Part shown: positions 7,062 to 40,400 of the stretch, in pieces
Numbering within the stretch: the first letter of the stretch is position 1
Layout of the letters: each line of letters begins with the position of its first letter
Source of the DNA: a virus
DNA length: 40,564 nt
Reading direction: 5' to 3' (one strand)
IMG/VR virus record: IMGVR_UViG_3300041583_000386
Span: 1 to 40,564 of that record
Translations under genes and position numbers: made by a program
The notes under the pieces: model-generated
The model's input: only the letters and a program-made list of their open reading frames with translations
What the model was told of the DNA's origin: nothing
The model's database searches: none

Positions 7062-8735
7062 ATGCGAATAATAGTTCATCCAACAGAATTTCATGTAGAG
7101 ATACCTTATGGGCGCTTTCAAACTTACCAGACCAATCAAATTAAGCTTCTTTTTGGTTCTAGGTTCGATTGGACACGTAAGCTCTGGATAGTGCCAAAAA
7201 AGTGTGAAGCTGAAATGCTTCAAATAAAAAACAAATGTAGAGCTGATTGGGAAGTGTTTGAGGCTCAAAAACCTCAAGTAGTTGGTGAAATCCTTGAGTT
7301 ACCTGAGTTAGATTTTGAGGTTCCTATTTATCATCCGGAAGGTTGGGAACTTAGACATTATCAGAAACAAGGTATAGCGCGTGGTTTAGAACTAAAAAGA
7401 TTTATTAACTGTTTTGAGCAAGGTCTAGGTAAAACAGGAACTAGCTGCACAACCTTAAAAGTTGCTGAACTGAAAGGTGAAGATGTTTTCCCTGCCCTGG
7501 TTATCTGCCCATCATCTACAAAAATAAATTGGCAGCGCGAATGGCACATGTGGACAGACAAAAAAGCAATGGTTTTAGACACAAAAACAAAAGATACATG
7601 GCATAGGTTCCATGAGCTTGGAATGAATGATGTTTTTATCACAAATTTTGAGAGCTTAAAGAAGTTTTTTGTAAAAAAAATGCCTGCAAAAGGAAAAATG
7701 CGCAATTCCATGGACATAGAATTAGATGGTAGGGTTGGTTTATTTAAGTCAATAATTATTGATGAAAGCCATAGAATGAAATCCCCATCTACTTTACAAG
7801 CAAAGCTAGGACTTAGGATAGCAATGGGTAAAGAATGGATTTTGCTTTTAACGGGTACCCCTGTGGTTAACAAACCAATAGACTTATATGCTCAATTAGC
7901 AATTATGGGACGTTTAAAAGAGTTTGGAGGACGTAAGGGTTATCTAGGTAGATATTGTGAAGGAGGTAGAGGCTCTGCTAATTTAAAAGAACTAAACTAT
8001 TTGCTGAATAAAACCTGCTTCTTTAGGAAAGAAAAGTCAGAAGTGGCAAAGGATTTACCAGAAAAGCAACGCCAAACTATTCTATGTGATATAACCACAA
8101 GAAATGAATACAATAAGGCTCAGAATGACTTTGTAAACTTCTTAAAGGAAAAGGGATGTGATGATGCTGAGATTGCTAAAAAGCTTCGTGGCGAAATAAT
8201 GGTTAAGATGGGTGAGCTTAAACGTATTTCTGCCAAGGGTAAAATGAATGAAGTTATTGAGTTTGTGAATGAAGTAACAGAATCTGGAGAAAAACTAATT
8301 GTGTTTTGCGTATTACATGAAATTGTAGATGAATTATTAAAAGAATTTCCTTTTGCAGTTACAGTTACTGGTCGGGATAATTCAGAGTTAAAACAGGCTA
8401 ACATTGATAAATTTCAGAATGATATTAACTGCAAATTGATTGTTTGTAACATTAGAGCTGCAGGAGTTGGCATAACGCTCACAGCTTCATCTAGAGTGGC
8501 TTTTGTTGAATACCCATGGACTTATGCAGATTGTGTGCAATGTGAGGACAGAGCGCACCGTATAGGGCAAAAAAACAATGTTATGTGTACTTACTTCTTA
8601 GGAAATAAAACTATTGATGAAGATCTGTATAAAATGATTCAGGAAAAAAGGCATACAGCCAATGCAATTACTGGTGCCACTGATAAGATGGAAATGTCAT
8701 TTGTGGATAATGTGGTTAATCTATTTAATAAATAA
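7062..8735 (+). CDS. SNF2-family DNA helicase/translocase
   Basis: 557 residues with a complete SF2/SNF2 motor: motif I QGLGKTGT (about 120-127), motif II DESH (234-237), motif III LTGTP (263-267), motifs V-VI GVGITLT and EDRAHRIGQ (about 469-502). The N-terminal 80 residues (FDWTRKLWIVPK) resemble the small domain preceding the motor in SMARCAL1-like proteins. Phage homologues usually sit in replication modules and probably remodel forks or recombination intermediates. The preceding leader reads CAAATTTTAAG, like the one before 2816. Confidence 0.92.
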   Translation: MRIIVHPTEFHVEIPYGRFQTYQTNQIKLLFGSRFDWTRKLWIVPKKCEAEMLQIKNKCRADWEVFEAQKPQVVGEILELPELDFEVPIYHPEGWELRHYQKQGIARGLELKRFINCFEQGLGKTGTSCTTLKVAELKGEDVFPALVICPSSTKINWQREWHMWTDKKAMVLDTKTKDTWHRFHELGMNDVFITNFESLKKFFVKKMPAKGKMRNSMDIELDGRVGLFKSIIIDESHRMKSPSTLQAKLGLRIAMGKEWILLLTGTPVVNKPIDLYAQLAIMGRLKEFGGRKGYLGRYCEGGRGSANLKELNYLLNKTCFFRKEKSEVAKDLPEKQRQTILCDITTRNEYNKAQNDFVNFLKEKGCDDAEIAKKLRGEIMVKMGELKRISAKGKMNEVIEFVNEVTESGEKLIVFCVLHEIVDELLKEFPFAVTVTGRDNSELKQANIDKFQNDINCKLIVCNIRAAGVGITLTASSRVAFVEYPWTYADCVQCEDRAHRIGQKNNVMCTYFLGNKTIDEDLYKMIQEKRHTANAITGATDKMEMSFVDNVVNLFNK

Positions 8736-8738
8736 AAA

Positions 8739-9407
8739 ATGAACGGTTACGATTTATCAAGATGTTGGTTTGATTTCTGCTTCGAGAATCCAGAGAAGAT
8801 AAAGCCTAATCATTCTGCAGTATATTTTTTTGCAATTGAACACTGCAATAGGCTAGGGTGGAAGTCTAAGTTTGGATTACCAAGTTCTATGACCATGGAA
8901 GCTGTAGGTATAAAATCATACAATACTTACATATCCACACTTAAGGATTTGGTTTCCTGGGGTTTTATAAAAATGGTAGAAAGAAGTAAAAATCAATATT
9001 CAAGCAACATAATTGCCCTATCAAAATTTGACAAAGCACTTGACAAAGCACTTGACAAAGCATTGATAAAGCACACGTCAAAGCAAAGTGAAAGCATTGT
9101 ACAAAGCATTGATAGTATAGATAAACCAATAAACAATAAACCAATAAACAATAAACAAAAGAGGGGGAAAAGATTTTCCCCGCCAGATATTATTGATATT
9201 AAAAATCAAATTTTAGAAAAAAAATATGTTTCAGTTAGAGCTGAATCATTCTGGAATTTTTATGAATCAAAAAATTGGATGATTGGTAAAAATAAAATGA
9301 CAGATTGGAAAAAGGCATTAGGAGGTTGGGAATCCAGAAATCAGGATAAAAACAAAAAATATAAAGATCAAAGTTTAGTAACAGTTGACGAAAATAAATA
9401 TGGATAA
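8739..9407 (+). CDS. Phage replication initiator, winged helix, with internal origin
   Basis: 222 residues. The N-terminal 90 residues are a winged helix of the replisome-organiser type (AVYFFAIEHCNRLGWKSKFG, then TMEAVGIKSYNTYISTLKDL). The middle is a repetitive linker (KALDKALDKALIK) whose DNA forms an iteron array. The C-terminal part (about 160-205, ESFWNFYESKNW and WKKALGGWE) is the short domain found at the C-terminus of such initiators. The gene precedes a DnaC-like loader, the same arrangement as lambda O-P. It should bind the origin and recruit the host DnaB helicase through the loader. Confidence 0.85.
   Translation: MNGYDLSRCWFDFCFENPEKIKPNHSAVYFFAIEHCNRLGWKSKFGLPSSMTMEAVGIKSYNTYISTLKDLVSWGFIKMVERSKNQYSSNIIALSKFDKALDKALDKALIKHTSKQSESIVQSIDSIDKPINNKPINNKQKRGKRFSPPDIIDIKNQILEKKYVSVRAESFWNFYESKNWMIGKNKMTDWKKALGGWESRNQDKNKKYKDQSLVTVDENKYG
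9028..9181. other. Candidate replication origin inside the initiator gene
   Basis: Three parts in a row. First, seven copies of AAAGCA (starts 9033, 9045, 9057, 9068, 9080, 9091, 9103), spaced 12, 12, 11, 12, 11 and 12 bp; the first four belong to a longer TTGAYAAAGCA iteron. Second, an A/T-rich stretch (9122-9156) built of a 15-bp repeat, ATAAACCAATAAACA, resembling an unwinding element. Third, a perfect 8-bp inverted repeat GGGGAAAA-GA-TTTTCCCC (9164-9181). Iterons plus an AT-rich stretch within the initiator gene match the lambda O/ori layout. Confidence 0.7.
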
Positions 9408-10032
9408 AATTTATAAAACTATTGCTGAAATAAAAAGCAAAATTAATCAATCAGATAAAAAAGAGTATGCAAAATCAATTTTATACTTGGATGAGCTTTT
9501 TGATAAACATTCAAAAATAATATGCCCTTCTTTTAAAAATTCTGAATCTGCTAAAAATCTTTACAATTATTTTTTAGCTCTGGTTACCGATCAAACAAAA
9601 AAAGGAGTTTATCTCTATGGAAATGTTGGAGTAGGTAAATCGACAATTTTTAAAATTTATAAGAATATTGGACTGCAGCTTTATTCAGAATATGGAATTA
9701 CAAAATTATTGTTTTCTGAGGTTACTGCTCCCTGGTTAGTTAATGAAAAAATGGAAAGTGTTTCTCAAGGCTATAAAGGTAATTTCAGTTTAGAAAATTA
9801 TTACAAAGGAAAATTATACATAGATGATTTGGGCATTGAAACGAAGTGTTTTAATTCTTATGAGCTCATTGAGAAAATTTTATTTCAAAGGCACAGGAAC
9901 GAGTCTTTAACTTTTGTGAGCTCTAATAAAACACCTAGAGAAATTTTAGAAAGATATGGGCCTCAAATTTTTGACAGGATGGGAGAAATGTTCCATATCA
10001 TAAAATGGGAAGGAGAAAGTTTGCGTTCATGA
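9400..10032 (+). CDS. DnaC-like helicase loader (AAA+ ATPase)
   Basis: 210 residues from the ATG at 9400; a TTG five codons upstream is possible but would overlap the initiator gene more. Walker A GNVGVGKST (about 74-82), Walker B YIDDLG with the following Glu, and sensor-like SSNKT and RMGEMFHII near the C-terminus match DnaC/IstB-type ATPases. It should load the host replicative helicase at the origin in the gene upstream. It overlaps the initiator by eight bases and the next gene by four. Confidence 0.88.
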   Translation: MDKIYKTIAEIKSKINQSDKKEYAKSILYLDELFDKHSKIICPSFKNSESAKNLYNYFLALVTDQTKKGVYLYGNVGVGKSTIFKIYKNIGLQLYSEYGITKLLFSEVTAPWLVNEKMESVSQGYKGNFSLENYYKGKLYIDDLGIETKCFNSYELIEKILFQRHRNESLTFVSSNKTPREILERYGPQIFDRMGEMFHIIKWEGESLRS

Positions 10033-12034: not shown

Positions 12035-12550
12035 ATGATGAGAGACTTTAATTTACATAAAGAAAAAGCCGTAAGCAGTCTTTTGTTTGTAATAAATAAT
12101 CTTGAAAAAGCTGACACACACAAGACATATAAAATTTTATATTTTGCAGATCAAAAGCATCTTTTAAAATATGGTAGGCCGATTTTTGGTGACACATATG
12201 TTAAAATGAAATATGGTCCAGTACCTTCTTTTGTTAAAAATGTAGTTGATGAGAATATTGAGGGATTAGAAGAGATTGTGGCTAAATATCACAATTATTT
12301 TATTAAGTCTTTAGTTGAACCAAATTTAGATTTTTTATCTGAAAGTGATTTAGATTGCCTTAGAGAATCTTTAGAAGAAAACAAAAATTTAGACTTCCCT
12401 GATTTAACTGAAAAATCACACGATTACGCATATAATAAAGCTACTTGGAATATTGATTATTTAGATATGGCCAAAGCTGTTGGTGCTGATGAAAATTTAT
12501 TAAACTTTATAAGTCAACAAAAAGTTAATGACAATTTAGAGTTGATATGA
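12035..12550 (+). CDS. Panacea-domain (DUF4065, SocA-like) antitoxin
   Basis: 171 residues. The block YKILYFADQKHLLKYGRPIF followed by GDTYVKMKYGPVPSFV (about 31-67) is the signature of the Panacea/DUF4065 domain. These proteins neutralise many unrelated toxins and are common in prophages. ATG at 12035 or the adjacent ATG at 12038 could start the protein. It overlaps the next gene by four bases, the tight antitoxin-toxin coupling expected. It has its own promoter upstream. Confidence 0.82.
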   Translation: MMRDFNLHKEKAVSSLLFVINNLEKADTHKTYKILYFADQKHLLKYGRPIFGDTYVKMKYGPVPSFVKNVVDENIEGLEEIVAKYHNYFIKSLVEPNLDFLSESDLDCLRESLEENKNLDFPDLTEKSHDYAYNKATWNIDYLDMAKAVGADENLLNFISQQKVNDNLELI

Positions 12551-12996
12551 GTTTAGGGGATTTTTTTCCTGACAATATAAAAGACGATTTTGCCAAAAGA
12601 AAGATAGATTTAGGAAACTCTATTTTAATTGAAATTCCTGATTTCTCTGTAACTTACCATAAATACATAGTAGTAGTAGCTAAGGATGAAAAAAACGCTT
12701 CTGTTGCTTATGTAGTAATTAATTCTGAAGCTAATCCCAATATAGCTTATAATCCATACTTAAAATCTCTCCATTTAAATATTGAAAAAAAGAATAATTT
12801 TTTTTTAGAAAAAGATAGCTTTGTTGATTGTTCAAAATTAAGAGAGTTTCCAATTGAATATGTTATAGATTTTTTAATTAAATATCCAGAAAACGCTGTT
12901 GGCAATGTCAGTTCAAGCGTTCTTAAAAATATACATACTACATTAAGTTTAGCTCCAACTATTGAGCCATTTATAAAGAAGAAGTTTGGGCTTTAA
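12547..12996 (+). CDS. Putative toxin partner of the Panacea antitoxin
   Basis: 149 residues. The N-terminal 100 residues have a beta-rich, SH3-barrel-like layout (HKYIVVVAKDEKNASVAYVV, then INSEANPN and DSFVDCSKL) reminiscent of PemK/MazF-type toxins, followed by a helical tail (SSSVLKNIHTTLSLAPTIEP). Toxin identity rests on the operon partner and four-base overlap; the PemK resemblance is by eye and moderate. If right, it would be an RNA-targeting growth inhibitor held inactive by the upstream protein. Confidence 0.7.
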   Translation: MSLGDFFPDNIKDDFAKRKIDLGNSILIEIPDFSVTYHKYIVVVAKDEKNASVAYVVINSEANPNIAYNPYLKSLHLNIEKKNNFFLEKDSFVDCSKLREFPIEYVIDFLIKYPENAVGNVSSSVLKNIHTTLSLAPTIEPFIKKKFGL

Positions 12997-39142: not shown

Positions 39143-39173
39143 TTTTTTGAAATTAAACTACATTTATTCTTTT
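39139..39173 (+). terminator. Terminator of the late operon
   Basis: Perfect 7-bp stem GTAGTTT/AAACTAC (39139-39161) overlapping the spanin stop codon, then ATTTATTCTTTTT. It separates the late genes from the convergent integrase gene, whose stop lies at 39153. Confidence 0.6.
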
Positions 39174-40337
39174 TCCATATTCTATAATACGTTGTTTATT
39201 ATTTAAATCGTAATGATTGTCTAGCATCTTGTTTGATGTATGGCCCGCAATACCTGAAGCTAAATTGCGACCTTTTAAATCAACTACTTTAGTCAAGTAT
39301 TTATGTTTGAATGAATAAAAGTCCTCATTTATTCCTAGCTTATTTTTTACATGTGTCTTCCAGCGCCTTGTTATTTGCTCACTCCTTATTTGTTTTTCTC
39401 CAGGGCTTAAGTTTTGGGAAAATAAATAATTGCCTTTTTCTGAATTTTCAATAATTTCAGACCAGAAATGTAAAACGTTATTATTAATCGCTTTTAATTC
39501 TTCAGTAGGTGTATTGTTTTTTAAGACAGTAATTTTAAAAGTTTGGGCCTTTATATTTACATCCTCTTTTTTTATTCTTAGAAGCTCAGAGGTCCTAGAT
39601 CCTGAACGGTAAAAAATCTCTAGATAACGATAAAATGTATAGTAATTTTCTTTTAAATGATTCCTTATTATTTCGTGATTAGTGTCAGTAACAGCTCTTC
39701 TTAGCTTTTTAATAACCTTCTTTTTTTCAATAGCATCTATTGGATTAATTTCTATAAGATCTTCAACTACAAGGCGTTTAAAAACTATCTGCATGTAGTT
39801 TCTAACTTTATTATAGCGGCTATTTGAATAGTTCTTTCTTTTTGCTAAATGATTTAGAATTGTTCTAACGTGTTTACGCTTAATTTCTGAAACTAAATAA
39901 TAGTCATAGCCTATCATTTTGGTGGATTCTATGAAATAATCCTTTAGCCATTTAATCTCATCCTTTGTTTTTTTAGCACATTCAACTTTAGAATAAGCAT
40001 ATTCAATTGCTTTACATATAGGCATATCTTCAGAAAAAGCTTCATTAAAATTACTATATGTATTATCTATGGGATTATATCCTTCATGAAACAAAATATG
40101 TAATTCATCTTTTATTATAGTTTCTGTAGCCTGTTGCCTTTGACTTAAAACCTTAAACTCGTTCATGCGACGAACAGTAATAGTTTTGCCCCAAAGACTG
40201 GTGTTTTCATACTTAGGATCGTAGAAACGATAGGTAATGCGCCAATTTTCTTTTAGTAAAAATTTGGCGTTTCTTTTCCAATTCTTTGGATAAACAAGTA
40301 GATTGCTGGCTTTACAGCCGTTTGGTAAGTATTGCAT
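39153..40337 (-). CDS. int: Tyrosine recombinase (integrase)
   Basis: 394 residues from the ATG at 40337; an upstream in-frame ATG at 40376 would add 13 residues (407). The shorter start is preferred because the protein then begins MQYLPNGCKASNLLVYPKNW, typical of Bacteroidota integrases, and because the arm-type repeats then lie in the promoter rather than in the gene. In numbering of the long form, catalytic residues are Arg261 (SGSRTSELL), Lys286, His379 (GHTS) and Tyr389 (DNHYDL). The box II HxxR is replaced by Y-S-F-K (354-357) before His358. It should recombine at the adjacent tRNA site. Confidence 0.93.
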   Translation of the reverse strand: MQYLPNGCKASNLLVYPKNWKRNAKFLLKENWRITYRFYDPKYENTSLWGKTITVRRMNEFKVLSQRQQATETIIKDELHILFHEGYNPIDNTYSNFNEAFSEDMPICKAIEYAYSKVECAKKTKDEIKWLKDYFIESTKMIGYDYYLVSEIKRKHVRTILNHLAKRKNYSNSRYNKVRNYMQIVFKRLVVEDLIEINPIDAIEKKKVIKKLRRAVTDTNHEIIRNHLKENYYTFYRYLEIFYRSGSRTSELLRIKKEDVNIKAQTFKITVLKNNTPTEELKAINNNVLHFWSEIIENSEKGNYLFSQNLSPGEKQIRSEQITRRWKTHVKNKLGINEDFYSFKHKYLTKVVDLKGRNLASGIAGHTSNKMLDNHYDLNNKQRIIEYGKRINVV

Positions 40338-40339
40338 AG

Positions 40340-40359
40340 TGTTGTCATTTTTGTTGTCA
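40340..40359 (+). promoter_or_regulatory. Candidate integrase arm-type sites, right pair
   Basis: TGTTGTCA at 40340-40347 and 40352-40359, the same octamer and 12-bp step as at 205-224. It lies just upstream of the preferred integrase start, so integrase binding could also control its own gene. Confidence 0.6.
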
Positions 40360-40400
40360 GCAAAAGACAAAAACACAGCATTGAAGAATTTTCTTTTTTA

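Follow-up and report, generated by a model that had tools for sequence, protein, structure and literature searches.

The stretch of DNA analyzed here (the window) is an IMG/VR virus record of 40.6 kb, which carries an integrase gene (positions 39153-40376) and belongs to a tailed phage of Bacteroidota bacteria. The early block on the forward strand comprises, in this order, genes for a Sak4-like annealing protein, an SNF2-type DNA helicase (7062-8735, plus strand; Pfam PF00176, E 1e-24), a putative replication initiator of 222 amino acids (open reading frame 8739-9407, plus strand), directly downstream of the SNF2 gene, and a DnaC-like AAA+ helicase loader (9400-10032, plus strand; PHROG phrog_3277, E 4e-16, and phrog_50, E 3e-14). 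A helicase-loader gene hence adjoins the initiator gene, the loader ATG at 9400 overlapping the initiator stop codon. Two further regions of the window were recorded. At 12035-12996 a gene for a SocA/Panacea-domain antitoxin (Pfam PF13274, E 8e-21) is followed by an open reading frame of 149 amino acids with only a weak PemK-like match, likely forming a toxin-antitoxin pair, and between 33800 and 36050 numerous tandem repeats of 9 and 18 bp, of the AAGGAGATCAAGG kind, suggest collagen-like Gly-X-Y repeats in tail-region proteins.

The initiator protein

The protein can be divided into a winged helix (residues 1-95), a linker encoded by the proposed origin (approximately residues 96-142) and a C-terminal three-helix domain (approximately residues 150-205). 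AlphaFold2 predicts residues 1-98 confidently as a winged helix (pTM 0.86), the linker with low confidence and the three-helix domain as a unit of its own; mean pLDDT is 78.7 for the full-length protein and 93.9 for the N-terminal domain. When the model of this N-domain was compared with the PDB, the best TM-scores (0.61-0.64) were those of the Rep/initiator structures 4pql and 5kbj, aligned with an rmsd of 2.5-3.3 over 84-89 columns at weak E-values of 0.015-0.023; the best Foldseek E-value was likewise weak (0.014), MarR-type regulators scored similarly by E-value, and the full-length model gave weak and mixed matches. At the sequence level, a search of the PDB returned no match to the initiator and no Pfam family recognized it, PF06970 being absent at E 0.1 for the window protein and at E 1 for 12 N-domains. 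With no Pfam match, the protein is perhaps RepA_N-like, but not a RepA_N member by sequence. Its PHROG matches to replication initiation are weak (E 0.0018 and 0.0069, the latter to the O-like phrog_18020), while the homologue in Polaribacter phage Danklef matches the O-like phrog_391 over residues 65-281 with an E-value of 1.5e-10, and DnaD-like loaders as well. A search of plasmids found only low-complexity tails and one DnaD-domain protein with 30% identity. Together, PHROG, structural and neighborhood evidence support the setting of an initiator followed by a loader that an earlier note, made from this DNA alone, had proposed.

The core array

Within the initiator gene, on the plus strand, seven exact copies of AAAGCA occupy positions 9033-9108 and are proposed to be binding sites for the initiator. 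They start at 9033, 9045, 9057, 9068, 9080, 9091 and 9103, with steps of 12, 12, 11, 12, 11 and 12 bp, and fall in frames 0, 0, 0, 2, 2, 1 and 1 relative to the ATG at 8739; the copies, steps and three reading frames described in the earlier note were thus all recovered. Seven copies fall within 76 bp; when the whole window was shuffled 300 times with dinucleotides preserved, such a span contained three at most. A four-core pattern with the spacing of the array was absent from all 397 whole genomes scanned, which belong to a single Bacteroidota family. The same note had described the spacing as close to one helical turn, which is approximately true, but strict helical phasing had to be rejected: with steps of 11-12 bp and a mean of 11.67 bp the cores precess around the helix, by about 40 degrees per core on B-DNA of 10.5 bp per turn.

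Conservation among relatives

Relatives were sought in virus contigs and genomes with a profile built from residues 1-98 of the initiator, and 80 of the 438 confirmed virus-contig relatives were kept, together with 34 loci in genomes; those genome loci with informative titles are from Bacteroidota, and phage Danklef is also a relative. The linker is readable in 225 unique relatives, from Bacteroidota phages and prophages, of which 215 have the array (at least three exact cores). In 100 unique sequences, all steps shorter than 20 bp between exact cores are of either 11 (144) or 12 bp (304), a degenerate core giving a longer gap between exact ones, and all three reading frames are used in 85 of them. 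Likewise, a chain search tolerating one mismatch and permitting steps of 10-13 bp returned only 11 (174) and 12 bp (352). The patterns 12,12,11,12,11 and 12,12,11,12,11,12 have 29 members each. In each of two whole genomes a three-core pattern occurs at a single site, the initiator gene, and the reversed control is absent.

A scan of the virus contigs that started from the DNA, with four cores, detected 138 overlapping arrays at 80 loci, 123 of which lie inside an open reading frame with the initiator N-domain; the rest are short tandem repeats (L206, L225 and L261) or lie in other phage genes (L207, L210, L213, L230, L259 and L271). These genes, of replication type and with no such N-domain, carry arrays of AAAGCA(A) with steps of 11-12 bp and changing frames. 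PHROG matches of L271 and L213 include a replisome organizer and a DnaD-like loader, those of L207, L210 and L259 are to a family of unknown function to which the window protein also has a match, and L230 resembles L210. Similar arrays may therefore have originated in at least two initiator families, and these genes are possible cases of convergent in-gene origins. Conversely, L332 and L333 contain the N-domain and no recognizable periodic array; their origin has possibly been relocated, or the gene has perhaps lost its role in initiation. In an open reading frame of a Maribacter MAG (L192, 2965-3426) the N-domain stops at about residue 73 and is followed by unrelated sequence, as in a broken or fused initiator.

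Selection on the DNA

In order to avoid circularity inside exact cores, codon usage was analyzed at residues picked by protein motif, independently of the core DNA. In the linkers, lysine is encoded by AAA rather than AAG before alanine (274:5) and by AAG rather than AAA before histidine (91:6), a split that matches the frame of the core (Fisher p 3e-66 for following residue A versus H/Q). Lysine codons elsewhere, in the N- and C-domains, display no such split by the next residue. Similarly, serine after glutamate or glutamine is AGC in 164 of 212 cases in the linkers and in 18 of 113 in the C-domains. These counts come from related sequences and are hence not independent events, their direction being uniform throughout. 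Synonymous codon choice, together with the spacing conserved across relatives, shows a constraint on the array at the level of DNA, as the earlier note had argued against a protein repeat.

Flanking elements

To the left of the array lies a block, ATTGCCCTATCAAA (9012-9025, plus strand); CTATCAA (9018-9024) within it is the inverted counterpart of TTGATAG (9109-9115). The codons of its IALS motif are constrained: of 51 relatives, 43 use CTA for leucine, compared with 9% in N-domains, and 49 use TCA for serine. CTATCAA and TTGATAG form an inverted pair around the array in most members, the left half being gone in one clade; the left block is missing from the distant clade of L318, L323 and L324. 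In L083, L116, L166 and L188 the array is broken by inserted sequence that duplicates, or is similar to, the left block TTGCYCTATCAAA, after which more cores follow.

The right block, TTGATAGTATAGATAAAC (9109-9126, plus strand), is conserved at the codon level in relatives with the SIDSID motif, in which all 54 use AGT for serine and ATA for isoleucine. It is followed by an A/C-rich, G-poor tract of AAACAA/ATAAACA repeats (9121-9159, plus strand), the proposed unwinding element, in which the 15-bp A/T-rich repeat of the earlier note is indeed present as two copies of ATAAACCAATAAACA (9121-9150). Across the family, the tract from +12 to +62 past the array contains 55% A, 17% C, 8% G and 19% T, with 4.8 AAACAA-type words per 50 bp versus 1.1 in composition-matched shuffles. 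The tract beside the cores is 74% AT, its AAACAA repeats are strand-biased, and it is predicted to be easily opened.

The palindrome GGGGAAAA-GA-TTTTCCCC (9164-9181, 8+8 bp) had also been assigned to the origin. It is present in the window, but it was rejected as a conserved origin element, since within its C-terminal type it is found again only in the closest relative, L002, and probably lies outside the origin. In the family as a whole, stems 3' of the arrays do not exceed those of shuffled sequence in length.

Altered cores and co-varying residues

In a few relatives the core is altered in all copies and the spacing is retained. The Salegentibacter locus L187 has seven ATCACT-like cores with steps of 12, 12, 11, 12, 11 and 12 bp, L329 has seven CAGCAC-like cores, and weaker variants are found in L372 and in L017/L019. 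At residue 61, with which the recognition helix begins, members with AAAGCA have Y, W, H, V or N, and none of 214 has R or K; of the nine readable members that lack a normal AAAGCA array, six have R or K there (L329, L195, L196, L372, L017 and L019). L187 retains Y61 and carries glutamate at wing residue 84, which is listed for no AAAGCA member. In the tree, L187 and L372 are placed together, apart from L195, L329 and L196, and at least two lineages are therefore involved in the change of core. The co-variation of these residues with the core is suggestive, that of residue 61 being seen in few lineages, several of them long branches.

Exchange of the C-terminal domain

C-domains were clustered after trimming of the linker, which revealed about 28 C-terminal types behind one N-domain and array, distinct at the level of BLAST (E 1e-6), at which distant homologies may merge some types. 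Even among pairs with N-domains 80-90% identical, the C-terminal type is common to only 119 of 769. In representatives of different types, the partner gene next to the initiator encodes a DnaC-like loader, a DnaB or a primase-helicase. The junction lies just past the array, and since many C-terminal types follow one N-domain and array, the proposed origin is therefore the swap junction. Being located between the recognition and the partner domains, it allows the latter to be swapped while the binding domain stays with its sites.

Discussion

We consider it very probable that 9012-9160 is a replication origin located inside its own initiator gene, of the lambda-O or RepA_N type, best read as consisting of the left block, the core array, the TTGATAGTATAGATAAAC block and the AAACAA-rich tract. 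Binding, opening, helicase loading and use of the origin are steps that we infer, as follows. The winged helix would bind AAAGCA, with one protomer either per core or per core pair (23 bp), and a multi-protomer complex would assemble on the 76-bp array, straining and opening the neighboring AAACAA-rich tract. The C-terminal domain would then recruit the replicative helicase machinery, here via the DnaC-like loader, the product of the gene that follows, and recombination beside the origin would exchange partner domains while binding domain and sites stay joined. The lack of a turning point in GC skew at 9 kb, the weak Foldseek E-values and the absence of a Pfam match weigh against this reading, and the array could serve autoregulation, besides or instead of initiation.

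Among the alternatives, the least improbable, although still unlikely, is that the array is mainly an operator through which a wHTH protein controls transcription of the replication operon from within its own gene, the true origin lying elsewhere. The likeness of the fold to MarR-type regulators, the GenBank entry that names the homologue in Danklef a transcriptional regulator and the lack of a GC skew turning point at 9 kb in the window are in accordance with such a function, but against it stand the six to nine close-set copies within a coding region, adjoining an AAACAA tract and with helicase or loader genes directly downstream; autoregulation by roadblock is compatible with origin function. 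A recombination, packaging or partition site that happens to lie in the initiator gene is very unlikely: the array does mark the junction of the C-domain swaps, but these are explained by selection keeping the binding domain with its sites, the genes linked to it serve replication, and the only free-standing copies that the scan of virus contigs showed outside replication-type genes are three unrelated tandem repeats. Finally, a flexible low-complexity linker (DKALDKALDKA...) grown by slippage and selected as protein, to which the shared frame of copies 1-3 and the partly predicted disorder would be suited, is contradicted by codon choice, lysine being AAA or AAG depending on the frame of the copy, by the retention of cores in three frames despite differing amino acids, and by the concerted change of all copies in L187 and L329, and is the most improbable of all.

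An origin within the initiator gene is of a kind already known. In lambda O/ori-lambda and its Stx-phage relatives, iterons and an AT-rich tract are located centrally within the initiator gene, which is followed by a helicase-loader gene (O-P). Lambda-type origins have 4-6 iterons, and in Stx phages two additional iterons, of about 19-20 bp each, lengthen the initiator by 13 residues (PMC7466680). The window family resembles lambda O in its in-gene repeats conserved as DNA, its A/T-rich tract and the adjacent helicase-loader gene, but it occurs in Bacteroidota phages, its cores are hexamers, 6-9 in number and 11-12 bp apart, and the O-like PHROG match of the window protein is weak. In RepA_N proteins (pSK41, pTZ2162 and the PLE RepA), an N-terminal winged helix binds sites located centrally in rep, the linker encoded by the origin is dispensable, and the C-terminal domain differs by host genus (PMC5703833, PMC7145576). 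Origin-like repeats inside rep and a variable C-domain are shared by the window family, although the window protein has no PF06970 match; moreover, pSK41 has four Rep boxes and a C-terminal domain that binds DnaG, whereas the C-domains of the window family pair with genes for DnaC, DnaB or primase-helicase. The chimeric initiator of pPR9, in which a phage-type N-domain and origin are fused to an unrelated plasmid C-domain (PMC5703833), has a comparable swap at the origin, but it is a rare staphylococcal chimera, whereas here a single phage family has about 28 types of C-terminal domain.

There is also a likeness to iteron plasmid origins of the RK2/TrfA type, with direct repeats bound by the initiator beside an AT-rich opening tract. 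The classical origins of this kind lie outside the gene and have longer iterons; one core pair in the window (23 bp) corresponds approximately to one such iteron.

A search of the open-access literature found no account of this origin. Origins of the in-gene type are established (lambda O, PMC7466680; RepA_N, PMC5703833), but the searchable papers appear to contain no description of the family, of its hexamer grammar with 11/12-bp steps in Bacteroidota phages or of C-domain exchange on this scale. We tentatively propose, as a possibility that we would place somewhat below even, a portable origin cassette in Bacteroidota phages, in which the winged helix and its own array would form a unit joined to some 28 different domains for helicase recruitment, the fixed 11/12-bp grammar would outlast changes of core, and residues 61 (in the recognition helix) and 84 (in the wing) would track the core. 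With a mean step of 11.67 bp, initiators could be aligned along one face of the DNA if it were under-twisted, and opening would then differ from that by the O-some of lambda.

The locus points to a specific, testable candidate origin in a large group of Bacteroidota phages that lack annotation, one of which, Polaribacter phage Danklef, is an isolate. Its relatives amount to over 200 natural variants of a single initiator-origin pair. The changed cores in L187, L329 and L372 are natural experiments on site recognition by the initiator, and the C-domain swaps show how phages switch helicase partners and yet retain their origin.
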